Positions 2,331 to 20,141 of a stretch of DNA of 64,000 nucleotides are shown one piece after another (position 1 is the stretch's first letter; each line of letters starts with the position of its first letter). The notes under the pieces were generated by a model. It was not told where the DNA came from, made no database searches, and was given only the letters and a program-made list of their open reading frames with translations. Origin of the DNA: Verrucomicrobiota bacterium (GTDB lineage Bacteria; Verrucomicrobiota; Verrucomicrobiia; Opitutales; UBA953); the NCBI GenBank assembly GCA_016871725.1, contig VHCL01000002.1, positions 1-64,000 on the forward strand. The letters run 5' to 3'. Made by a program: the position numbers and the translations under genes.

Positions 2331-2783
2331 TCAGCCTTTGATCGAGAGGCCGCGCAACCACGCGATCCAGCCGGCGGGCAGGCCGCGGGCGAGGGCGCCG
2401 CGCACGATCTTCTCGTGGTAGAGGCGCGAGGGCAGGTGGGGGCCGGTCGGGTCGACGACCTTATAGGCCTGGCAGTCGAGCGGGCAGTCTTCCAGGCCGG
2501 CTTCGAGCACGGTCAGCTTGATGCGCTTGTAGGCCGTGCCTTCCGCCTCATCCATACGCTTCCAATCATCCGGGGTCATCTCGTAGACCGCGCCCCAGAC
2601 GCCCGGGGTGTCCTGGTCCTCGAGGATGTCGGCCGAGCCGCCGCCCCAGGTGGAGCTGGGGTGCGTGAAGGCCAGGCGGTGCTTGGGCAGGAAGGCCTTG
2701 CCGCGGTAACTGGAGCCGGGGCAACGCCGCTCCATCTGGGTCGAATCCAGATTGGAGGCGTAGGCGAAGTAGAACCGGCTCAT
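2331..2783 (-). CDS. gamma-glutamylcyclotransferase-like protein
   Basis: About 150 residues from the ATG at 2783. The N-terminus FYFAYASNLD is the substrate-loop signature (YxSN) of the gamma-glutamylcyclotransferase (AIG2/GGCT) fold, and VYEMTPDDWKRMDEAEG carries the typical conserved acidic part with the likely catalytic glutamate. Such enzymes release 5-oxoproline from gamma-glutamyl peptides or amines in the cytoplasm. An upstream ATG at 2825 would add 14 residues that do not fit the fold, so the internal start is preferred. It precedes tag with a one-base gap. The actual substrate cannot be told. Confidence 0.8.
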   Translation of the reverse strand: MSRFYFAYASNLDSTQMERRCPGSSYRGKAFLPKHRLAFTHPSSTWGGGSADILEDQDTPGVWGAVYEMTPDDWKRMDEAEGTAYKRIKLTVLEAGLEDCPLDCQAYKVVDPTGPHLPSRLYHEKIVRGALARGLPAGWIAWLRGLSIKG

Positions 2784-2888
2784 GGGAAGGGCATCGGACT
2801 TTGCCCATCCCGGCGCGGGATGCAAACGGATTGGGACCGCTGTGAATATGACGTTCTCCGCGCGGGAGTTACGTCGCGTGCCCGCCGC

Positions 2889-4730
2889 TCAGAAGCGGCG
2901 CGTCAGGCTGAGGTAGGCCGAACGCGGCTGGGCCGGGAAGCCGAAGGCCGCCGGCGGGGCGTCCTCGCCGAAAAGGTTCTCGATGCGCAGGGAGATCTCG
3001 GTGCGGTCGGAAAGGACGCGACGGATACAAAGGCGCACGAACGTCGCGTCCGGGAGTTCGGTCCGGGCGTAGGCGTTCCAGTCGAAGTCCTCGCGTCCGC
3101 GCAGATGGGCCGCGGAGACGCCGAAGGTCCAGTCGTCGTCCGGCATGACCTCCGCGCCGAGGGAAAGCGTCAGCGTCGGCCGACGGAGCAGTTTGTCGCC
3201 GGTGAGTCCGGTGCCGAGGAAGTAGTCCGAGGACAGGATCTGGCTGTCGAGCCAGGTGGCCGCGCCGAAGAGGCGGAGGCCTTTGGACGGACGCGTCTCG
3301 ACGCCGGCCTCCAGGCCTTGGGTGCGGGCCTCGGCGATGTTGTAGGTCTGGTAGCTGAGCGGGTTGTAATCGATCAGGTCGCTCAGCTCGTTGCGGAAGG
3401 CCACCAGCGTCCAGGACAAGGCGCCGGGAACGCTGTCCTCGTGGCGCAGGCCGACTTCGAAGCCCGTATTGCTCTCGGGACGGAGCGGCAGGCCGAGGTG
3501 CGTGCCGTAGGCGAGGTCATTGGCCGCCGGGGCGCGGTAAGCCGTGCCGACTTTGGCGTGGGCCAGCAGCTCCTTCGTGAGGCGTCGGCTGTAGGTGACG
3601 TCGCCCGTGGTCTTGCCGGCGAAGTCCGTGAAGCGGTCGGTGCGGAGCGCGGCGCGGATCCGGTCCTTGGCCGTGGCCTGCCATTCGGCACGGGTCCAGA
3701 CGCCGAGGCTTTCCTGGGTCCCCGCCCAGGTGAGACTGCTCGCGGCGACGTCGAATTGGTCGAAGGTGGTGCGCTCGTAGCTGAGTCCGAGTCCCAGGCT
3801 CAGGTCGGACCGGACGCGTCGGTCGACCGTCGCGGTGAGTTCGTCGCGATCCAGTAAGTAACGGTTCGCATAAGGCACGGTGAGGCTCTCGATCGAAGAA
3901 CCTGCGCGGGACCAGAAGACCGCGGCTTCGGTGTCCGCGTCTTGGAAGCGAAGGCCCGGAGAGAGCAGCCAGCCGCCGTCGCGCTGCCAGTCGGTGACGT
4001 TGGGCGGGCCGCCGAGCTGCTGGCCGGGCAGGCCGGCCTGGCCGTGGTCGGCCGAACCGACGATGTCGAAGACCAGGTTCGTCGTAAGGCGTTGTTCGTG
4101 CTTCAGGAAAGCGCTCACGGCCTCGCGGTCGGCGTTGGGTCGGAAGCCGTCGTCGTGCGTCGCGGTCAGCGAAAGCGCCGTGCCCTGCGTGGCGGCCTTA
4201 CCTTCGGCTGCGTTGTTCGTGAGCAAGGCGTAGTTCAGCGTGCCGCGACCGAAGGAGCCGCCTTCAGCCACAAGCGTGGAGCCGGTGCGTGCCGTGAGCG
4301 GGGACTGCTGGCGCAGGTCGATGACGCCGCCGAGCGCGTTGGCGCCGTAGAGGGTGGAGGAGGGGCCGCGCAGCACTTCGACGGAGGCCAGGCCGAAGAT
4401 GCGGTAGCGGCCGATCTCGTAAGAATTCGAGAAACCCTGCGGCAGACGTCGACCATCGAGCAGCACGGCCGTCTGGGTCGAATTGGTGCCGCGCAGGAAG
4501 AGGGCGCCGACCGAGCCCTCGCCGGACTGTTCCGTGGCGAAGACGCCGGGAGCGCCGCCGAGGAGGCTGGTCAGGGTGGTCTGGCCGGCGTCGGTCGCGG
4601 CGGCCACGTCGAGGCGGCTGACGGAGGGCGAGGTGTCCGCCAAGGGCTTCGCCTGTCGGGTTTCGATCACGACGGTCTCAGGCAGGCGGGTCGGGGCCTG
4701 GGCGAGGAGCAGGGCGGCGATGGTCAACAT
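2889..4730 (-). CDS. TonB-dependent outer-membrane receptor
   Basis: A 613-residue outer-membrane receptor with a short signal segment (residues 1-12), a plug domain (about 17-145, including the run VEVLRGPSSTLYGANALGG typical of TonB receptors) and a 22-strand-type barrel that ends in LSLTRRF with a C-terminal aromatic residue, as needed for outer-membrane insertion. Size and plug resemble the BtuB/vitamin B12 group more than large siderophore or SusC types. No cobalamin riboswitch fits in the roughly 100 bases between it and the divergent ACT-domain gene, so the ligand is open. Energy would come from TonB-ExbBD, which is not in the window. Confidence 0.9.
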   Translation of the reverse strand: MLTIAALLLAQAPTRLPETVVIETRQAKPLADTSPSVSRLDVAAATDAGQTTLTSLLGGAPGVFATEQSGEGSVGALFLRGTNSTQTAVLLDGRRLPQGFSNSYEIGRYRIFGLASVEVLRGPSSTLYGANALGGVIDLRQQSPLTARTGSTLVAEGGSFGRGTLNYALLTNNAAEGKAATQGTALSLTATHDDGFRPNADREAVSAFLKHEQRLTTNLVFDIVGSADHGQAGLPGQQLGGPPNVTDWQRDGGWLLSPGLRFQDADTEAAVFWSRAGSSIESLTVPYANRYLLDRDELTATVDRRVRSDLSLGLGLSYERTTFDQFDVAASSLTWAGTQESLGVWTRAEWQATAKDRIRAALRTDRFTDFAGKTTGDVTYSRRLTKELLAHAKVGTAYRAPAANDLAYGTHLGLPLRPESNTGFEVGLRHEDSVPGALSWTLVAFRNELSDLIDYNPLSYQTYNIAEARTQGLEAGVETRPSKGLRLFGAATWLDSQILSSDYFLGTGLTGDKLLRRPTLTLSLGAEVMPDDDWTFGVSAAHLRGREDFDWNAYARTELPDATFVRLCIRRVLSDRTEISLRIENLFGEDAPPAAFGFPAQPRSAYLSLTRRF

Positions 4731-4836
4731 TAAGTATCTTCGTATCTAGATATGTGTATGTTAGTCAAGTTCCTCCTTTGGGGCGGCGAGGAAATGGGGC
4801 TGGAGAATGGCCTTGGATTTGGCATAGTAGGTCACG
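4731..4836. promoter_or_regulatory. Divergent intergenic region, TonB receptor / ACT protein
   Basis: This AT-rich gap of 106 bases separates two divergent starts. On the minus strand TTGACT (4769-4764) could serve as -35 for the receptor gene, with a weak -10 about 17-18 bases on. A perfect 10-base palindrome TATCTAGATA lies at 4743-4752 and is flanked by two copies of a GTATCT-like word, which would suit an operator. No riboswitch fold is apparent. The promoter reading is inference. Confidence 0.35.
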
Positions 4837-5295
4837 ATGGCCGCCGAACTCTCCCAGCAACCTGACCTCGGACCGGTCCGCCAGTTCTCCATCTTCGTCG
4901 AGAACAAGGTCGGCCGCCTCAACGAGCTCGTAGAATCCTTGGCCGGGGCGGACGTCCACATCATGGCCCTCTGCCTGGTGGACACCACGGACTCGACCAT
5001 CATCCGCATCGTGGTCGACTATCCTGAACGCGCGGAGCAGATCCTCGACGAGCATCGTTTCGCGCATGACGACGTCCCGGTGGTCGCCATCGAGCTCCAG
5101 TCCGAGGCCCAGCTCAAGGACGTCACCCGCGTCCTGCTCAAGGCGGAGATCAACATCCATTACGTCTACCCGTTCTTGTTCCGGCCCAACGGCCGCTACG
5201 GGCTCGTGGTGCGCACCGAGGCCCAGGAACTGGCCTCGTCCGTCCTGTCCAGCCACGGCATCACCGTGCTGAGCCGGAACGATATCGCTAGATAA
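4837..5295 (+). CDS. Tandem ACT-domain protein
   Basis: A 152-residue cytoplasmic protein made of two ACT-type domains (about residues 14-75 and 85-148). The first begins RQFSIFVENKVGRLNELVESL and the second has FLFRPNGRYGLVVRTE, the usual beta-alpha-beta-beta-alpha-beta layout that binds amino acids or other small effectors. Free-standing double-ACT proteins of this length are common in Verrucomicrobiota and Planctomycetota. It differs from the acetolactate synthase small subunit IlvH in length and in lacking the IlvH C-terminal domain, and no ilvB is adjacent. Its effector and partner are unknown. No Shine-Dalgarno sequence is evident. Confidence 0.75.
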   Translation: MAAELSQQPDLGPVRQFSIFVENKVGRLNELVESLAGADVHIMALCLVDTTDSTIIRIVVDYPERAEQILDEHRFAHDDVPVVAIELQSEAQLKDVTRVLLKAEINIHYVYPFLFRPNGRYGLVVRTEAQELASSVLSSHGITVLSRNDIAR

Positions 5296-5371
5296 GGAAA
5301 AACGACAGAGCTTTCTGCGGATAGCGGTTGGCGGTTCGGTTGGTACGTGGCCGCAGGGCGGCCGGGTGTGG

Positions 5372-5392
5372 GGGCGCGGCCTCGCCGCGCCC
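5372..5392. repeat. GC-rich palindrome, REP-like
   Basis: GGGCGCGG and CCGCGCCC form a perfect 8-base-pair stem around a five-base CCTCG loop. There is no T-run, so it is not a classic terminator. Such short GC palindromes are often interspersed repeats, but only this copy is seen in the window. Confidence 0.4.
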
Positions 5393-5494
5393 TCCTATCT
5401 CTTGGGGGTTATTCCCCGATCAAGAAGGCAGCTTTTCCTTGAATGGGTCGGTTGACTTGTTAACTTTTACGTAAGGAATGGAAATGTCCGTTCG

Positions 5495-5530
5495 ACGCGG
5501 GTCCGGTTCGCCGGCCCGCGTTTCCTTTTA
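5495..5530 (+). terminator. Rho-independent terminator with TTCG loop
   Basis: ACGCGGG, a bulged T and CCGG pair with CCGG and CCCGCGT across a TTCG tetraloop, giving an 11-pair stem, followed directly by TTCCTTTT. It is a strong intrinsic terminator on the plus strand. It may end transcription from the ACT-domain gene 200 bases upstream, or a short transcript starting at the TTGACT at 5452. Confidence 0.75.
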
Positions 5531-5638
5531 GATGAGTTTGTTGCTTAAAACATTCTGTGCCCCATCCGATCTCGTGGCTCGATTAATAGAGGGTTTCCCG
5601 CTCTGGGGTAGGTAGGCCGAAGCCGCCAAGGCCTTGGC

Positions 5639-5668
5639 TTGACCATCCCTCCGCGCTCCCCATTAGTT
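5639..5668 (+). promoter_or_regulatory. Possible tRNA-Ser promoter
   Basis: TTGACC (5639-5644) and TTAGTT (5663-5668) are separated by 18 bases and lie about 28 bases before the mature tRNA 5' end. This is compatible with a sigma-70-type promoter, though the -10 element is weak. Confidence 0.35.
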
Positions 5669-5671
5669 AAC

Positions 5672-5693
5672 GTCCTTCGAATTAACGAAGGAC
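5672..5693 (+). repeat. 8-bp perfect inverted repeat in tRNA leader
   Basis: GTCCTTCG and CGAAGGAC flank the six-base loop AATTAA, ending two bases before the tRNA. In RNA it would form a leader hairpin abutting the acceptor stem, perhaps a processing determinant. As DNA it could also be a recombinase or regulator site. Confidence 0.5.
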
Positions 5694-5695
5694 CT

Positions 5696-5786
5696 GGAGA
5701 GGTGGCTGAGTGGCCGAAAGCGCCCGTTTGCTAAATGGGTATACCCCAAAAGGGTATCGTGGGTTCGAATCCCATCCTCTCCGCCA
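5696..5786 (+). tRNA. tRNA-Ser (GCT)
   Basis: A complete class II tRNA. The acceptor stem pairs GGAGAGG (5696-5702) with CCTCTCC (5776-5782), followed by discriminator G and an encoded CCA (5784-5786). The anticodon arm CCCGT-TTGCTAA-ATGGG presents anticodon GCT, reading AGC and AGT serine codons. A long variable arm (TACCCC-AAAA-GGGGTA type) follows, as in serine tRNAs, and GGTTCGAAT is the T-loop. The long variable arm and the T arm at the 3' end make it a typical integrase target; see the repeats downstream. Confidence 0.97.
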
Positions 5787-5988
5787 CTTTGACCTATGCG
5801 GCCCGATGTAGGGCTTTGCGCATGTTTTTGGACCTGAATCGGTGTTTTTGAACCGCCGGTGAACAGGAGCATCCAGCTGACGCTACCAAAAACCCTACCA
5901 AAGGGCGCCCCGGCTCGTCCGGGTATTACCAAGAACTATGACCAACCGAAGGTAAGGTCGGGGTCGGACTGAGCAGGCTGGAATGAAA
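5787..5988. other. Segment behind tRNA with short direct repeats, possible old integration scar
   Basis: This 200-base stretch between tRNA-Ser and the esterase stop has lower GC than its surroundings. It holds two copies of TGTTTTTG (5823-5830, 5843-5850; 20-base period) and two of CTACCAAA (5883-5890, 5895-5902; 12-base period). Paired short direct repeats beside a tRNA 3' end resemble integrase arm-type sites, but no integrase gene is present. No credible gene lies here; the minus-strand frame across it is the antisense of the tRNA. Confidence 0.35.
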
Positions 5989-6852
5989 TCAGCGAGCAAC
6001 CGGGAGCACGCCGATCTGGGTGAGCCAGGCCTGGCACTTCTCTGGCCAAGCCTTGGCTTCCTTGTCGGAACGTAGTCCGTGGCCGTGGCCGCCGGTGGCG
6101 CAGCGGAAGAAGGCGTGCTGAGGCGAGGCGGCCTTGAGCGCGGCGAAGTAGGCGTCGGTGCCGGCGATGAACTTCCTGTCGTCCACGGCCTGCGCGATGA
6201 AGGTCGGCGCGGTCTTGGCGTCCACCTGCGGCACCATGCCTTGGTCGAGGTAGGCGGGATAGACGAGGATGGCGAAATCGGGTCGCAGGGGCTGGTCGTC
6301 GGCGGCGTCGACGCGCGGGTAGGTCGCGGGTCCGGCAAAGACGCTGAGACGGGCGGAGAGGTGGCCGCCGGCCGAGAAGCCCATCACGCCGACCCGGTCC
6401 TTGGCGATGTTCCACTCGGCGGCGCGATGCCGGACGATCCGGACGGCGCGCTGGATGTCCTGGAAAGCGCCTTCACGGTTCGCCGGCACGCGATACTTGA
6501 GCACCACGCCGGTGATGCCGAGGGTGTTCAGCCAGGCCGCGAGCTCGGTGCCTTCCTTGTCGTAGGCGAGGATGGTGTAGCCTCCTCCCGGGCAGATGAT
6601 CACGGCCGGAGCCGGCTTGGCGGACTCCGCCGGATAGACGGTGAAGCTCGGTTCGCTGATGGCGGTCAGGCGGAGGACGTTGTCGCCGCGAGCCGGTAGC
6701 GCCTTCTCCGGGCCTTGGGTCGCCGGCGCCGGCACGCGGTCCTTGGGCCAGAGCGAGACGACGATGCCTGCCCCGCGGGGGGCGGGTTGCGGAATCTCGG
6801 CGGCGGGCATGGTGGTCACGAGCAGGGCGGAGAGCAGGAACGCACGGAGCAT
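5989..6852 (-). CDS. Secreted alpha/beta hydrolase, acetyl-xylan-esterase-like
   Basis: A 287-residue protein with a signal peptide (about residues 1-18). ICPGGGYTILAY near residue 86 is the oxyanion-hole HGGG-like block, GFSAGG carries the nucleophile Ser160, and the histidine lies in the C-terminal GGHGHG stretch. This is the BD-FAE/acetyl-xylan-esterase branch of the hormone-sensitive-lipase-like hydrolases, which often removes acetyl or feruloyl groups from plant polysaccharides. It is transcribed divergently from the GH10 xylanase with about 108 bases between the starts, so the pair is likely co-regulated. The exact ester is inference. Confidence 0.85.
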   Translation of the reverse strand: MLRAFLLSALLVTTMPAAEIPQPAPRGAGIVVSLWPKDRVPAPATQGPEKALPARGDNVLRLTAISEPSFTVYPAESAKPAPAVIICPGGGYTILAYDKEGTELAAWLNTLGITGVVLKYRVPANREGAFQDIQRAVRIVRHRAAEWNIAKDRVGVMGFSAGGHLSARLSVFAGPATYPRVDAADDQPLRPDFAILVYPAYLDQGMVPQVDAKTAPTFIAQAVDDRKFIAGTDAYFAALKAASPQHAFFRCATGGHGHGLRSDKEAKAWPEKCQAWLTQIGVLPVAR

Positions 6853-9985: not shown

Positions 9986-10951
9986 TCAGGGCTGCAGGCA
10001 GCGCCGGGCTAACTCGATCCAGAGCGGGATGCCGACGAGGAGGTTCACCGGGAAGTTGATCGTCAGCGAGAGGCCGAAATACAAGGACGGGTTCGCTTCC
10101 GGCACGGTGAGCCGGAGCACGGCCGGGACGGCGATGAAGGAGGAGCTGGCGGCGAGCGTCATCAGCAGGGCGCCGTCGCCGGCCGGGATGGAGAACCAAC
10201 GGCAGAGGAGCAGGGCGATGGCGGCATGCGCGAAAGGCGCGAGGCCCGCGTAGGCGAGGACCGGAGCCTGGCCCCACGAGACCTTGCCGAGGTTACGCGC
10301 GACCATCAGGCCCATGTCCAGGAGGAACAAGGCCAGGATGCATTTGAAGAGGTCGAGGAAGACCGGTTGCAGCACGGCCTTGCCGGGTTCGGCGGAGACG
10401 TAGCCGATCACCATCGAACCCAGCAGCAGGATCTGGGTGCCGTCGGTGAGCGACTCATGCAGGATCCTGCCGGCTTTGATGCCACCGGCCTTCGCATCGC
10501 CGGATTGGTTGCGCAGGAAGCCGGCGGCGATGACCGCGAGGATGATGGCCGGCGATTCCATGATCGCCATCGCGGCGGACATATGTCCGCCGAAGGCGAG
10601 GCCGGCGTCCTCCATGCGTTGCGTCGCGGCGATGAAGGCCACGGCGCTGACCGAGCCGAAGCTCGCCGCGACGCCGACGGCATCAAAAGGGAGCAGGAAT
10701 TTACGGAGGAGGAAGTAGCCGAGGAGGGGGATGAGGGTCGCCAGGAGGATGGCGCAGCCCAGTCCGGTCGCGACGCTCTGGTCGAAACCGGACTTGGCCA
10801 AGGCGAAGCCTCCCTTTAGTCCCAGGGAAATCAGGAGCATCTGGCACAGCATGCGGGACGCTTGGGCTGGTATTTCGAGATTCGATCTGACCAGCCCGGC
10901 GAACACGCCGAAAGCGAAGAAGAGCAGGGTGGGATCCAAGAGTTTGGCCAT
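9986..10951 (-). CDS. SbtA-type sodium-dependent bicarbonate permease
   Basis: A 321-residue membrane protein with about ten helices. SLGLKGGFALAKSG in the N-terminal half, FGSVSAVAFIAATQ near 100, and AASSSFIAVPAVLRLTVPEA in the C-terminal half are the repeated blocks of the SbtA (DUF897) family. SbtA imports bicarbonate with sodium in cyanobacteria; in heterotrophs homologues may feed carboxylases. The PII-like partner gene sbtB, often adjacent, is absent. It is divergent from a LysR-type gene, the usual arrangement for inorganic-carbon uptake genes. Confidence 0.88.
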   Translation of the reverse strand: MAKLLDPTLLFFAFGVFAGLVRSNLEIPAQASRMLCQMLLISLGLKGGFALAKSGFDQSVATGLGCAILLATLIPLLGYFLLRKFLLPFDAVGVAASFGSVSAVAFIAATQRMEDAGLAFGGHMSAAMAIMESPAIILAVIAAGFLRNQSGDAKAGGIKAGRILHESLTDGTQILLLGSMVIGYVSAEPGKAVLQPVFLDLFKCILALFLLDMGLMVARNLGKVSWGQAPVLAYAGLAPFAHAAIALLLCRWFSIPAGDGALLMTLAASSSFIAVPAVLRLTVPEANPSLYFGLSLTINFPVNLLVGIPLWIELARRCLQP

Positions 10952-11023
10952 ATTCGGTCTTCTTGGGCGGATATTTTATTGACTAAAGACTATTCCGAAA
11001 AATTAATAAATAGCACAAATACT
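10952..11023. promoter_or_regulatory. AT-rich divergent promoter region, sbtA-like / lysR
   Basis: This 72-base gap is the most AT-rich spot in the area. TTGACT (10979-10984) and TTAATA (11003-11008), 18 bases apart, make a good plus-strand promoter for the LysR gene. The imperfect palindrome ATTGACTAAAGACTAT (10978-10993), with a GACTA direct repeat, overlaps the -35 and is a plausible LysR-protein site. Neither start has a clear Shine-Dalgarno sequence. Confidence 0.5.
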
Positions 11024-11947
11024 ATGAACGTCACTTTTAGACAGCTCCAACTTTTCCGAGCCTTGGTGTCCACCGGCAGCATCAGCGGAGCGGCCAAAGA
11101 GGCAAACGTCACCCAGCCGACGGCCTCGGTGCACCTCCGCGATCTCTCCGAAGCGGTCGGCCTGCCGCTTTATGAAGTGATCGGTCGTAAGGTCTTCCTG
11201 ACCGAGGCCGGGCGCGAACTCGCCAAGGCCGCGCGCGGCGTCCAGGTGGAGTGGCACGCCTTCGAGCAGAACATCCAGGCGCTGCGCGGCGGCGAGAGCG
11301 GGCTGCTCAGGGTCTCGATGGTCAACACCGCCCAATATTTCGCGCCGCGTCTGCTCGGCTCCTTCTGCGCCACCCGTCCGGGCGTCGACGTCTCGATGGT
11401 CCTGCTCAACCGCGACGGCGTCGTCGACCGCCTCCGGCAGAACCATGACGACCTCTACATCATGTCGCGTCCGCCGGCCGACCTGGCGCTGAGCGCGACG
11501 GCCTTCATGCCGAACCCGCTCGTCGTGGTCGCGCCCGCGGAGCATCGTCTGGCGGGCCGGTCGGCGGTGCTGCTGCAGGATCTCCGCGACGTCCGCTTCA
11601 TCACCCGGGAGCGCGGGTCGGGCACGCGCCTGGCCGCCGACGATTATTTCCGTCAGCGCGGCTTCGAGCCCTCCGTGCGGTTCGAACTCGGCAGCAACGA
11701 GGCGATCCTCGAAGCGGTGGCCGGCGGCATGGGCTTGGCGATCGTTTCCGCCCACGCGATCCGCAAGGGCGCGCACCCGGGATTGGTGACGCTCCCGGTC
11801 GAAGGCTTCCCGTTGCAGTCCAGCTGGCAGATCGTCCATCCCTCCGGCCGGCGGCTTTCGCCTCTGGCGGCGGCTTTCAAGGCGCACCTGATCGCCGCGG
11901 CGAAGGAGCTCGTCGGCGCCAAGGAGATCGTCGGCCTGGGCGCCTGA
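11024..11947 (+). CDS. LysR-family regulator, CbbR/CmpR-like
   Basis: A 307-residue LysR-type activator. The N-terminal helix-turn-helix (about 5-62: FRQLQLFRALVSTGSISGAA) is followed by the periplasmic-binding-like effector domain (about 92-295). RQLQLFRALV and VTQPTASVHLRDLSEAVGLPLYE closely resemble CbbR/CmpR regulators of carbon fixation and bicarbonate uptake. Its divergence from the SbtA-type permease supports control of that gene. The ATG at 11024 is chosen because the longer frame runs back through the promoter and the permease gene. Confidence 0.9.
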   Translation: MNVTFRQLQLFRALVSTGSISGAAKEANVTQPTASVHLRDLSEAVGLPLYEVIGRKVFLTEAGRELAKAARGVQVEWHAFEQNIQALRGGESGLLRVSMVNTAQYFAPRLLGSFCATRPGVDVSMVLLNRDGVVDRLRQNHDDLYIMSRPPADLALSATAFMPNPLVVVAPAEHRLAGRSAVLLQDLRDVRFITRERGSGTRLAADDYFRQRGFEPSVRFELGSNEAILEAVAGGMGLAIVSAHAIRKGAHPGLVTLPVEGFPLQSSWQIVHPSGRRLSPLAAAFKAHLIAAAKELVGAKEIVGLGA

Positions 11948-15313: not shown

Positions 15314-17470
15314 ATGGCTGACTCCAAGAATGCGGGAAGTTCTTCGTCGTCGACCCCTGGCCCTGACGAAGGGCATGCCCGGGAAACCCGTCTGATCGGC
15401 TTCCTCGCCCGTCAGGCAGGACTGGAGCCGGATGCTTCGCGCATCGATGGCGCGCTTTCGGCCCATGCGGGCGAAGAGCCGCTCGAGCGCGTCGCCGCCG
15501 CCCTCCCTTCCGCCGGGCTCAAGGCGGACGTCTGCCGCATGCCGCTCGCCTCCGCCCTCTGGCAGGCGCGGGCCTCCCTGCCTTTGGTCATCCACACCGA
15601 AGGCAAGGGCTTCACCGTCGTCGTCGGCGGCGGTCTTTTCCGGGAGCGGCTCGCCTCCTTCGACGGTGATGAGAACACCTACGTCGTCAGCCGGTCCGCC
15701 TTGGTGCAGCAGCTCGGGCTTCCCTCGGCGCAGGCCGAGGTCGAAGTCGCCTTCGTCTCGCCGACGATGCCGGCCGAAGGCCTGAAAGGCCGGGACGAGG
15801 ACGAGCACCACCACGACCGCCACCCCAGTCCGATCAGCCGGCTGTTCGGCCTGATGCGGCCGGAGGCCTCGGACATCGCCACCATCCTCATCTTCAGCCT
15901 GGTCACCGGCCTGCTCTATCTCGCGCTGCCGCTCGCCATCAACGGGGTCGTCGGCAACCTCGCGTTCGGCACGCAGTCGACGCCGTTCCAGCAGGCCCTC
16001 ATCTTCATCACCTTGGCGCTCACCGGCTGCCTCGTGTTGTCCGCCGTCATCCGCGGTCTGCAGTACGTCGTGGCGGAGCACATCCAGCGGCGCATCTTCG
16101 TCCGGCTGGCGGCCGACATGGCATGGCGTCTGCCGCGCGTCCGCACCCAGGCCTTGGACGGCGTCCACGCGCCCGAGATGGTCAACCGTTTCCTCGACGT
16201 CGTCACCGTCCAGAAGAGTTCGGCGATGCTCCTCCTCAACGGCATCAACATCGTCGTCGGCGCCGTGGTCGGCCTGGTGGTGCTCGGTTTCTACCATCCC
16301 TTCCTGCTCGCGTACATGTTCGTGACCTTGCTCGGCCTCGCCTTCGTCGTCTACGTCCTGGGGCGCGGCGCGATCGCCTCCAGCCTGGCCGAATCCCGGA
16401 GCAAGTACGCCGCGGTCGGGTGGCTCGAAGAAGTGGCCCGCTACCCGCGTCTCTTCAAGGGGCCGTCCGGCCTGGCGTTGGCCGGTTCCCGGACCGACGA
16501 ACTGGCCCGTAACTATCTCGAGGCCCGCGCTTGGCATTTCCGGGTGCTGATGCGTCAGATCGCCGGCCTGCTGACCCTCGAGGTCCTCGCCACGGCGGCC
16601 TTGCTGATCGTCGGCGGCGGCCTCGTGCTGAGCCAGCAGCTCACGCTCGGTCAGCTCGTGGCCAGCGAGCTGATCGTCAGCGCCGTCGTCGCCTCCTTCG
16701 CCAAGCTCGGCAAGCAGTTCGAAGCGTGGTACGACGCCTTGGCCGCGGTCGACAAGCTGGGGCATCTCGTGGATTTCGAGACCGACCGCGAAGGCGGGGA
16801 GATCCCCGCCGGCAACCCGGCCGGGGTCGCGATCGAGCTGCGGACCGTGTCCTTCGCCTACCCCGGCGGCCGCGAGCTGCTGAGCGGGCTGGACGTCAGG
16901 GTCGTCCCGGGCGCCCGCGTGGCGCTGGCGGGGACCCAGGGCAGCGGCTGCAGCACGTTGCTCGACCTGGTCTCCGCCATGCGCGAACCGACCGCGGGCA
17001 CCATCCTCGTGGATGGGCTCGACCTGCGCTCGTGGGACCTCGAGGCGTATCGTTCCCAGGCGATGGTGCTGCGTTCCCAGGACATCCTGAGCGCCACCCT
17101 GATGGACAACCTCCGCCTCGGCCGGCCGGACATCACGCTCGGGCAGGCCCAGGCGGCGTTGGCCGAGGTCGGCCTGCTTACGGATGTCCTCGCCATGCCG
17201 GACGGTTTCGCCACGCGGCTCGTCACCGGAGGCCTGCCGTTGTCCAGCCGGCAGCGCAACCGGCTGCTCGTCGCCCGCGCCTTGTTGCATCGTCCGCGGC
17301 TGCTCGTCATCGACGAGTTCCTCGACGGCATGGACGGCGAGAACACCTGCCGGCTCCTCGACGTCGTCATGGACCCCGCCCGTCCGTGGACGTTGCTGCT
17401 GGCTTCCCGCGACCCCCAGCTCATCCGTCGCTTCTCGACGGTCATCAACCTTCCTTCCTCCCCCGCATGA
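15314..17470 (+). CDS. ABC transporter (type I secretion-like) with altered ATPase motifs
   Basis: 718 residues: an N-terminal domain like the C39 peptidase fold but without a visible catalytic Cys (about 25-140), a six-helix ABC exporter domain (about 190-480) and a nucleotide-binding domain (about 510-715). The Walker A reads GTQGSGCS (540-547), with Cys546 where the catalytic Lys should be; TGC is clear in the sequence. The signature is LSSRQ (about 642) instead of LSGGQ, the Walker B LLVIDEF is normal, and the switch region reads ASRD without the usual His. Layout and neighbours match HlyB/LapB secretion systems, but ATP hydrolysis by this site is doubtful. The stop overlaps the adaptor start (ATGA). 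Confidence 0.85.
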   Translation: MADSKNAGSSSSSTPGPDEGHARETRLIGFLARQAGLEPDASRIDGALSAHAGEEPLERVAAALPSAGLKADVCRMPLASALWQARASLPLVIHTEGKGFTVVVGGGLFRERLASFDGDENTYVVSRSALVQQLGLPSAQAEVEVAFVSPTMPAEGLKGRDEDEHHHDRHPSPISRLFGLMRPEASDIATILIFSLVTGLLYLALPLAINGVVGNLAFGTQSTPFQQALIFITLALTGCLVLSAVIRGLQYVVAEHIQRRIFVRLAADMAWRLPRVRTQALDGVHAPEMVNRFLDVVTVQKSSAMLLLNGINIVVGAVVGLVVLGFYHPFLLAYMFVTLLGLAFVVYVLGRGAIASSLAESRSKYAAVGWLEEVARYPRLFKGPSGLALAGSRTDELARNYLEARAWHFRVLMRQIAGLLTLEVLATAALLIVGGGLVLSQQLTLGQLVASELIVSAVVASFAKLGKQFEAWYDALAAVDKLGHLVDFETDREGGEIPAGNPAGVAIELRTVSFAYPGGRELLSGLDVRVVPGARVALAGTQGSGCSTLLDLVSAMREPTAGTILVDGLDLRSWDLEAYRSQAMVLRSQDILSATLMDNLRLGRPDITLGQAQAALAEVGLLTDVLAMPDGFATRLVTGGLPLSSRQRNRLLVARALLHRPRLLVIDEFLDGMDGENTCRLLDVVMDPARPWTLLLASRDPQLIRRFSTVINLPSSPA

Positions 17471-18762
17471 GCAAGTCCACCGACACCCCGGCGCCGGCCC
17501 TGCGCGGAAGCCTGCCCGCCTTGCTGCTGGCCGGTTCCTCCTTCCGCATCCGCCTGCTGTCCCGCTTCGCCGGCCTGTGCTTCGTCGCCATCATCCTCGC
17601 GATCTGGTTCCTGCCTTGGCAGCAGTTCGTGCGAGGTTCCGGCAAGGTCATCGCCTTCGATCCGCTGGAGCGTCGCGTGAACGTCGAGGCGCCCGTCGCC
17701 GGACTCGTGCGGAAGATGCACGTCGTCGAAGGCCAGCGGGTCAAGGCCGGCGAGGTGCTCGCCGAACTCCAGGACAACGATCCTAACCTGCTGAACAACC
17801 TCAGGTCGCAGCGGTCTTCGTTGGCCGACCGGCAGGCCGCCACCCGTCGCCGCATCGAGGATCTCGACCTGCAGGTCCGCCAGCTCGAGCTCGCCCGCGG
17901 CCAATCGGTGGACGCCGCCCGCCAGCGCGTCGTGGCCGACAAGATCGCCGCCGAGACCGCCGCGCTCAACTTCACGCGCACCAAGGAACTGAAGGACGCC
18001 GGGCTCGTCTCCGTCCGCGATTACGAGCTCGCGATCCAGTCCCGCGACAGCACGGCCGCCTCGCTGGTCGCCGCCGAAGCCACCCTCGGCCGCACCGAGA
18101 GCGAGTTCGGCGCGACCATCGCCGGGGTGCGCGCCCAGCGCGGGTCGGCCCAGTCCGATCTCGCGTCCGTCGAACGAGACCTCGGCGTGATCGACGTCCA
18201 GATCAGCCAGAACGAACGGCAGCTCGTGCGCGCCCCCCGCGACGGCATCGTCCTCTCCGTCCAAGCCACCGACGGCACGTATCTGCGCCCCGGCAGCCCG
18301 ATCTGCGTGGTCATCCCTGAGACCGACAGCCGTTTCGTGGAGATCTGGCTCGAAGGCAACGACATGCCTTTGCTCCAGTCCCGCGTGACCAAGCCGGACG
18401 GCACCGTCATCCCCGGCAGCCCGGTGCGCCTGCAGTTCGAAGGCTGGCCCGCCATCCAGTTCGTGGGCTGGCCAAGCGTCGCCATCGGCACTTTCGGCGG
18501 CGAAGTCGTCTTCGTCGACGCCGCGGGCGACCCCTCGGGCAAGTTCCGCGTCGTCGTGGCGCCGGCCGACGACGTGGTCGTGCTCGACGGTAAGCCCACC
18601 AAGGTCGGCTGGCCTGGCAACCGCTGGCTGCGCCAAGGCGTGCGGGCCAACGGCTGGGTGCTGCTCCAGCAGGTGCCGCTCTGGAAGGAGATCTGGCGGC
18701 AGCTCAACGGCTTCCCGCCGGTCGTCGCGATGGATGAGCCGGGCAAGGAGGCCAAGAAATGA
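17467..18762 (+). CDS. HlyD-family membrane-fusion (adaptor) protein
   Basis: 431 residues: a short cytoplasmic N-terminus, one membrane helix (about 33-52), a biotinyl-lipoyl half (NVEAPVAGLVRKMHVVEGQ), a long coiled-coil region (about 105-245, two arms rich in Arg, Asp and Gln), the second lipoyl half (RAPRDGIVLSVQATDG) and a beta-barrel. In type I secretion such adaptors bridge the inner-membrane ABC protein to a TolC-like channel. The start overlaps the ABC stop and the end overlaps the channel gene start, so the three genes form one coupled operon. Confidence 0.9.
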   Translation: MSKSTDTPAPALRGSLPALLLAGSSFRIRLLSRFAGLCFVAIILAIWFLPWQQFVRGSGKVIAFDPLERRVNVEAPVAGLVRKMHVVEGQRVKAGEVLAELQDNDPNLLNNLRSQRSSLADRQAATRRRIEDLDLQVRQLELARGQSVDAARQRVVADKIAAETAALNFTRTKELKDAGLVSVRDYELAIQSRDSTAASLVAAEATLGRTESEFGATIAGVRAQRGSAQSDLASVERDLGVIDVQISQNERQLVRAPRDGIVLSVQATDGTYLRPGSPICVVIPETDSRFVEIWLEGNDMPLLQSRVTKPDGTVIPGSPVRLQFEGWPAIQFVGWPSVAIGTFGGEVVFVDAAGDPSGKFRVVVAPADDVVVLDGKPTKVGWPGNRWLRQGVRANGWVLLQQVPLWKEIWRQLNGFPPVVAMDEPGKEAKK

Positions 18763-20141
18763 GGTGGCTGGCGCTTATCGCCCTGCTGCCGGCCTGGCTG
18801 GCCGCGGCGGAGCCTTTGCGCCTGCCGGAGGTGCTGACGAGCGTCAAGGAACGCTATCCTCCCTTGCTCATCGCGATGATCGAGCAGGACATCGCCGCCG
18901 GCCGTCTGCGGCAGGCCGACGGCGCCTTCGACCTGGGTTTCGCCCTGCGGGCCGGCATCACCCCGAAGGGGTACTATGACGGCGACACCGCCGACGTCGC
19001 CTTGGAACAACGTCTGCCGTTCTGGGGCGCCAACGTCTTCGCCGGCTATCGCCGCAGCAGCGGCCTGCTGGCCGATTACGACAAGGACCGCACCCAGCGG
19101 GACGGCGAATTCCGCGCCGGCCTGCGCTTCAACCTCCTCCGCGACGGACCCATCGACAGGCAGCGCGCCGAACGGCTCAAGGCGCGGCTGGACCTCAGCC
19201 TCGCCGACCCCTTCATCGAACGTCAGCAGCTCGACATCATCCGCTCCGCGACGCGCACCTATTATAACTGGGCGGCCGCCGGACACCGCGAAGCCGTCGC
19301 CCGGGATCAGCTCAAGGTGGCCCAGGACCGCGCCGCCGCGCTGACCGAGCAGGCGAAGAGGGGGATGGTCGCCCCGATCGTCGTCACCGACAACGAGCGA
19401 CTGATCGTCAGCCGCCAGCTCCTCGTCACGCAGGCGCGCCGCCGTTTCGAAGCGGCCTCGCTGGAGCTCTCCCTGTTCTACCGCGGCCCGGATGACCAGC
19501 CGATCACCCCCGGTCGCGACCGTCTGCCCGCCGAAATGCCGGCCACCGAACTGCCCGAACGGATGGGTGACGTCTCGTTGCTCGAAGCCGTCGCCGAGCT
19601 CCGCCCGGAATTACGCCGCGTCCGTCTGCTCAAGGAGAAGGTCGAGGTCGACCTGCGCCTCGCCCGGAACGCGACCTTGCCGAACCTCGACCTGACCTTC
19701 GGCATCACCCGCAACCAGGGCGGAGGCCCTTACAACGACCTCCGGCCGGAGGAGTCCCGTGCCGGCCTGGAGTTCCGCCTGCCCATCCAGCGGAACGAGG
19801 CTTTCGGCCGGACGCAGGTCTCCGAGGCCGAGCTCCGCCGTCTCGAACAGGACCTTTATTTCGTCCGCGACCGCATCCGCGTCGAAGTGAAGGACGGTTG
19901 GTCCGCCCTGGCCGCCGCCCATGAGCTGCTCGGCGCCGCCCGTCGTAACGTCGAGCTGTCGGACCTCCTCGTGAAGGCCGAACAGAAGCGTTTCAGCCAG
20001 GGCGCGACGGATCTCCTCGCTCTCCAGATTCGCGAGCAGGCCTTGCTCGAGGCGCAGTTCGCCGAAGTCACCGCGCAGGCGGATTTCTTCACCGCGCTCG
20101 CCGACTACCGCGCCGCCATCGCCGCGGATCTCAAGAAGTAA
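18759..20141 (+). CDS. TolC-like outer-membrane efflux protein
   Basis: 460 residues with a signal peptide (about 1-17) and the two-fold repeated helix-rich layout of the outer-membrane factor family (long heptad helices about 155-235 and 355-455, with beta segments GLRFNLLRDG and GLEFRLPIQRN). It would form the trimeric channel of the ABC/adaptor system encoded directly upstream, with which it shares an ATGA overlap. It ends nine bases before the convergent alcohol dehydrogenase stop. Confidence 0.9.
   Translation: MRWLALIALLPAWLAAAEPLRLPEVLTSVKERYPPLLIAMIEQDIAAGRLRQADGAFDLGFALRAGITPKGYYDGDTADVALEQRLPFWGANVFAGYRRSSGLLADYDKDRTQRDGEFRAGLRFNLLRDGPIDRQRAERLKARLDLSLADPFIERQQLDIIRSATRTYYNWAAAGHREAVARDQLKVAQDRAAALTEQAKRGMVAPIVVTDNERLIVSRQLLVTQARRRFEAASLELSLFYRGPDDQPITPGRDRLPAEMPATELPERMGDVSLLEAVAELRPELRRVRLLKEKVEVDLRLARNATLPNLDLTFGITRNQGGGPYNDLRPEESRAGLEFRLPIQRNEAFGRTQVSEAELRRLEQDLYFVRDRIRVEVKDGWSALAAAHELLGAARRNVELSDLLVKAEQKRFSQGATDLLALQIREQALLEAQFAEVTAQADFFTALADYRAAIAADLKK

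Follow-up and report, generated by a model that had tools for sequence, protein, structure and literature searches.

An ABC exporter-like family with degenerate ATPase motifs, a conserved membrane domain and inorganic-carbon genes among its neighbours

ATP-powered work is the defining trait of ABC proteins. The locus described here raises the question of what a protein with the fold of an ABC exporter does when most of its ATPase motifs are gone. The locus lies in a window of 64,000 nucleotides (the whole stretch of DNA that was analysed) from a Verrucomicrobiota bacterium, and comprises an ABC gene followed by genes for a periplasmic adaptor and an outer-membrane channel. The operon has the following features:

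15314..17470, forward strand: ABC exporter-like protein of 718 amino acids (open reading frame), with a C39-like N-terminal domain, six transmembrane segments and a degenerate nucleotide-binding domain (NBD)
15371..15829, forward strand: C39-like (peptidase-like) N-terminal domain, residues 20-172, an alpha/beta domain in the AlphaFold2 model, aligned with HlyB/PCAT1
15830..16813, forward strand: transmembrane domain, residues 173-500, the best-conserved part
16826..17461, forward strand: degenerate NBD, residues 505-716, from Pfam, motif alignment and AlphaFold2
16931..16957, forward strand: Walker A GTQGSGCST (in AGTQGSGCST), with Cys546 for Lys (codon TGC, 16949-16951)
17060..17089, forward strand: Q-loop region AMVLRSQDIL, the Gln gone, one residue shorter than canonical
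17240..17254, forward strand: signature LSSRQ (canonical LSGGQ)
17300..17317, forward strand: Walker B LLVIDE, intact
17402..17413, forward strand: switch ASRD, with Arg699 for His
17467..18762, forward strand: HlyD-type periplasmic adaptor with the family hallmark FEGWPAIQFVGWP (Pfam HlyD_3)
18759..20141, forward strand: TolC-type outer-membrane channel (Pfam OEP, 102 bits)

By fold, the product of the ABC gene belongs to the ABC exporter superfamily, with both domains in one chain according to Pfam (ABC_tran, 64.7 bits against a cut-off of 25; ABC_membrane, 33.8 bits against a cut-off of 28), AlphaFold2 and Foldseek. The AlphaFold2 model (pLDDT 86, pTM 0.85) has a confident exporter fold that is predicted to be intact. 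By its ATPase motifs the protein falls outside the superfamily, the Walker B Asp/Glu alone being retained. The original prediction, made from the sequence of this locus, had pointed to Cys at the Walker A Lys position, LSSRQ, ASRD without the His and an intact Walker B, in an open, well-kept frame within an otherwise complete operon; each of these observations was confirmed. Its list of lost key motifs was correct in what it named and incomplete, having overlooked the loss of the Q-loop Gln (VLRSQD in the window protein vs VLQEN in canonical exporters). The three genes are coupled by overlapping ATGA junctions at 17467 (ABC stop and HlyD start) and 18759 (HlyD stop and TolC start).

The Cys is conserved within the genus. 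Three genus relatives, 91, 89 and 60% identical to the window protein, share it and retain QGSGCST, LSSRQRNR, the Walker B DE and (S/T)RDP. A sequencing error or lone mutation is thereby ruled out, and the near-identical homologues with Lys that would have spoken against the original prediction were not found in the genus. Selenocysteine or another recoding event at the Cys was also ruled out, as the five relatives flagged for TGA have only an ordinary terminal stop.

Beyond the original prediction are the whole family to which the protein belongs, the membrane domain as its conserved half and the link to inorganic-carbon genes. A genome scan found at least 573 family loci in Verrucomicrobiota, Planctomycetota, Acidobacteriota, Myxococcota, Pseudomonadota, Melainabacteria-type and other lineages, including plasmid members in Persicobacter and sphingomonads; 80 of these loci were studied. 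In a membrane-domain tree the family falls into a single clade, separated from canonical exporters by long branches, and is thus monophyletic. The family is large, spans several phyla and apparently has no existing name. A literature search covering few subscription journals returned nothing on degenerate type I secretion ABC proteins in these phyla.

All 33 canonical controls (30 type I secretion-like exporters of the phylum and three from the window's own genome) retain the Walker A Lys, Q-loop Gln, LSGGQ, Walker B Asp, Glu/Asp and switch His. Among the family proteins compared, the Q-loop Gln is missing in 106/108 and the Walker A Lys in 55/108 (replaced by Ala, Cys, Val, Ser, Gly or others), the residue following the Walker B Asp is Gly in 32/108, and the switch His is retained in only 14/108. 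The Walker B Asp itself is kept in 105/107. These losses occur in different combinations: (i) 41 members lack Lys and His and have Glu, (ii) 24 have Lys, with Gly for Glu and no His, and (iii) about 11 of 106, mostly from Gemmataceae/Isosphaeraceae, have all three residues and a near-normal signature. A tree from which the NBD was left out requires at least eight changes of Lys state and at least seven of His state, by a method that is blind to loss versus gain; its canonical outgroup possesses every motif. In a group of class members (family f31; L153-L157), Lys is present, the signature reads LSTSE and the catalytic Glu is replaced by Gly. The sphingomonad members (L025:4920-6644 and plasmid relatives), which are 55-78% identical to one another and often plasmid-borne, have an NBD with no recognisable nucleotide motif, and every motif is gone from the pNL2 member.

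The distribution of conservation within the protein is inverted as well. In pairs at 30-60% identity, NBD identity exceeds transmembrane-domain identity by 19 to 22 points in canonical exporters, vs a deficit of 9 to 10 points in the family. The NBD is the worse-conserved half in about 99% of such family pairs, and members that keep the Lys behave alike. Residues that are invariant in the family and differ from those of canonical exporters are located in the membrane domain and cytosolic loops (Arg292, Gln300, Gly320, Tyr327, Ser361, Lys364, Gln415, Glu452, Tyr473, Lys481 and others). Since the inversion extends to Lys-keeping members, the whole family appears, from its sequences, to have moved from ATPase-centred to membrane-domain-centred constraint. 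The C39-like domain is poorly conserved, with the highest entropy of the three domains, and is missing from some relatives.

HlyD and then TolC follow the ABC gene, as in the window, in nearly all family loci with enough flank, a gene order shared with type I secretion systems. By curated cut-off the window protein is not a type I secretion ABC protein: it scores 167.7 vs 693.1 bits for TIGR03375 and 126.2 vs 725.6 for TIGR01846. The HlyD hallmark FEGWPAxQFxGWP occurs in 88/101 family HlyD reading frames and in no reading frame of 20 control loci. No recurrent candidate gene for a secreted substrate was found among the neighbours in the 6-kb flanks of family loci.

Genes for inorganic-carbon handling surfaced in an unsupervised comparison of neighbouring genes, and were confirmed with Pfam and NCBIfam. 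Two features of the window are relevant:

9986..10951, reverse strand: SbtA-type Na+-dependent bicarbonate transporter (Pfam Sbt_1, 308 bits), 4.4 kb upstream of the operon
10985..11947, forward strand: LysR regulator, closest to CbbR and transcribed divergently from SbtA (best NCBIfam match CbbR, 225 bits against a cut-off of 450)

Both genes are situated 3-5 kb upstream of the operon. The SbtA gene of the window is on the opposite strand with other genes intervening before the operon, and is only loosely in its neighbourhood. SbtA is also found about 4 kb from the operon in one genus relative (G024, locus L159), and is absent nearby in two others (G028, G035). Across the family, the carbon genes near the loci encode DabA/DabB, SbtA, an SbtB-like PII protein, SulP with or without a fused carbonic anhydrase, and beta-carbonic anhydrase. 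DabAB and SbtA/SbtB are cation-linked or adenylate-regulated systems for bicarbonate accumulation (PMC8438413). Such genes lie within 6 kb at 15/80 family loci vs 0/20 canonical secretion loci (Fisher p 0.03), a control set small enough that a density test and gene contiguity bear the weight. Six DabA loci were found vs 0.12 expected from genome-wide density (Poisson 3e-9; 7e-6 when counted as four lineages), and four SbtA loci vs 0.05 expected in the scanned DNA. Contiguous runs on one strand include SbtA-SbtB-ABC-HlyD-TolC-SulP::CA (L028, where CA is carbonic anhydrase), SbtA-SbtB-ABC-HlyD-TolC (L034), ABC-HlyD-TolC-SulP (L050), SulP-ABC-HlyD-TolC (L087), CA-ABC-HlyD-TolC (L065) and DabB-DabA-ABC (L104); in another genome (G389) DabA is about 2 kb from the ABC gene. 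In several lineages, family members thus share an apparent operon or close neighbourhood with inorganic-carbon transporters or carbonic anhydrase. At one further locus (L174) SulP and carbonic anhydrase are found about 6 kb away, and at another (L105) DabA and the ABC gene are separated by about 3.4 kb of unannotated DNA (2619-5994).

At the genome level, DabA is present in 13/23 genomes of the class that carry the family vs 26/361 that do not (Fisher 9e-9), and by genus in 7/10 family-positive vs 20/161 others (p 1e-4), an association that is partly phylogenetic because several of the genera belong to the same class. The carbon-linked loci likewise include several from one Verrucomicrobiaceae clade. 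The remaining 65/80 loci have no carbon gene within 6 kb, and none was seen at the inspected sphingomonad plasmid members (L025, L178-L182), whose neighbours are uninformative for function, or at the Persicobacter member. A literature search covering few subscription journals returned nothing that joins HlyD/TolC with DabA/SbtA.

The regulator encoded just upstream of the ABC gene changes by phylum (L066, L068-L070, L074, L078, L096): Acidobacteriota operons have a divergent ArsR-type regulator, and those of Planctomycetota and Verrucomicrobiota often have an NhaR-type LysR or a small winged-helix regulator. An NhaR-like match in the window was weak (41 bits) and was rejected, the LysR protein there being CbbR-like instead. 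Two-component regulators shared with the window are generic and were set aside.

The reading that we favour, which we regard as standing about evenly between right and wrong, is that the ABC-like protein is the inner-membrane part of a tripartite system with HlyD and TolC, in which a non-hydrolysing NBD would serve as scaffold or gate. The protein would most likely form a homodimer of the usual exporter fold. To judge from the motif losses, its NBDs would no longer hydrolyse ATP, and would retain their fold as a structural or regulatory (gating) module in place of an engine. The highly conserved membrane domain may then act, coupled to HlyD and TolC, as a gated conduit or as a secondary transporter, and in a substantial part of the family the system may serve inorganic-carbon (bicarbonate/CO2) and linked Na+/pH homeostasis. 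This reading is weakest where loci have no carbon neighbour, as many do, in that one clade supplies several of the carbon-linked loci, and for those members that may still be able to hydrolyse ATP. Among the possibilities raised in the original prediction, a protein that functions in some other way or acts as a gated channel fits these data best, as an inference. A narrower proposal, that an ABC-fold transporter without ATP hydrolysis of its own forms with HlyD/TolC a conduit through which inorganic carbon or a counter-ion passes between cytoplasm and medium, in cooperation with DabAB, SbtA/SbtB or SulP, is tentative and on balance unlikely.

Also rather doubtful is a secondary tripartite pump driven by an ion gradient, in which the membrane domain would couple to protons or Na+ and the NBD would be a relic scaffold, in the manner of an RND- or MFS-driven pump built on an ABC fold. 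Such coupling is suggested by charged and polar membrane-domain residues that are specific to the family and missing in canonical exporters (His328, Glu452 in 98%, Gln415, Lys481, Arg405 and His408), and by linkage to Na+-dependent SbtA, cation-coupled DabAB and divergent NhaR-type regulators (11/80 loci). However, conserved charges also occur in the cytosolic loops that contact the NBD, and the placement of residues relative to the membrane comes from one predicted monomer.

It is quite unlikely that the protein is an ordinary ATP-driven exporter with an unusually tolerant NBD and slow ATP turnover. The near-universal Walker B Asp, the predicted intact fold and the members with Lys, Glu and His are what such an exporter would be expected to show, but the recurrent independent loss of these three residues and the family-wide Q-loop change argue against it. 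So do the weaker conservation of the NBD even among Lys-keeping members and the disappearance of every motif from the sphingomonad NBDs. The approximately 11 members with Lys, Glu and His could, by analogy, still hydrolyse ATP, because Q-loop mutations do not always inactivate other ABC proteins (PMC7756269).

A second ATPase from elsewhere, which the original prediction had offered as another explanation, gained no support. In such a heterodimer the degenerate half would pair with a competent ABC half encoded elsewhere and one working ATP site would remain, as in TM287/288, TAP, Pdr5 and CFTR. There is a precedent for the Cys, since the degenerate site of yeast Pdr5 has the same Walker A replacement and also lacks the Walker B Glu and the H-loop His (PMC7756269), and the best NCBIfam match of the window protein is NHLM_micro_ABC2, the permease of a two-ABC system. 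Yet no ABC gene adjoins the operon in the 80 loci, apart from two unrelated ones (L052, L053), and the class search turned up a single family copy per genome. The other ABC exporters of the window's own genome, a tandem pair and one single gene, occur in 54-55 of 55 genus genomes whether or not the odd gene is present, and are genus-wide housekeeping genes. The search for a second HlyB-like ATPase that had been proposed as a check found no type I secretion ABC match (TIGR03375) in the own genome or in four family-positive genomes covered by the phylum search (G240, G243, G252 and G287). Because no competent second half was found by any of these routes, a heterodimer is improbable; moreover, the signature that the partner's site would need is degenerate as well.

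A decaying or misassembled gene without function, to which the patchy presence of a full-length copy (4 of about 37 genus genomes) together with the truncated one in G014 might point, is hardly credible given the open frames, the coupled operon, the Cys shared by three relatives and a dN/dS between close relatives of about 0.03 for the membrane domain (97-98% identical) and 0.08-0.17 for the NBD, which places the whole frame under purifying selection, with the NBD looser. In G014 (L023 / L161) only the first approximately 172 residues of the ABC protein are still in frame, as a truncated or decaying copy, which suggests that the system is dispensable. Sequencing error or decay may also underlie a single in-frame TAA in the G509 ABC gene (L168, 8650-10815) and a frame break in the HlyD gene of L034 (8073-9295).

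With a non-hydrolysing, membrane-domain-centred transporter as the preferred reading, the family offers a way to test whether an ABC exporter can turn into a gated channel or a secondary transporter, a change that would be the bacterial counterpart of CFTR-type conversion. The carbon link suggests a component of bicarbonate/CO2 or Na+/pH handling that has gone unrecognised in Verrucomicrobiota, Planctomycetota and others, and the present annotation of these genes, 'ABC transporter ATP-binding protein', is misleading. The chance that the family represents a new kind of machine is real but unproven.

Among known systems, exporters of the HlyB/LssB type share with the window protein the order of domains (C39-like, six-transmembrane, NBD), the operon with HlyD and TolC, and the fold (Foldseek 8dck and 7sgr, E about 5e-24 to 8e-24). 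Unlike them, the window protein is without the Walker A Lys, Q-loop Gln, LSGGQ and switch His and scores far under the NCBIfam cut-offs, and its family is inverted in conservation and linked to carbon-uptake genes in place of a secreted substrate. PCAT1 is the closest solved fold by E-value (Foldseek 6v9z, 4e-24); however, PCAT1 has ATPase activity and a functional peptidase, whereas the NBD motifs of the window protein are lost.

Individual substitutions of the family, among them Walker A Lys to Cys and the loss of Glu or of His, are also known from the degenerate sites of exporters such as TM287/288, TAP, CFTR and Pdr5 (PMC7756269). These transporters are asymmetric and keep one competent site, whereas the window protein is a single-copy half-transporter, so that a homodimer would have the losses at both of its sites. 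DabAB, SbtA/SbtB and SulP/BicA, none of which is known to have an ABC-HlyD-TolC module, are comparable as gene neighbours of the family, with which they share the same apparent operon in L028, L034, L065, L087 and L104.
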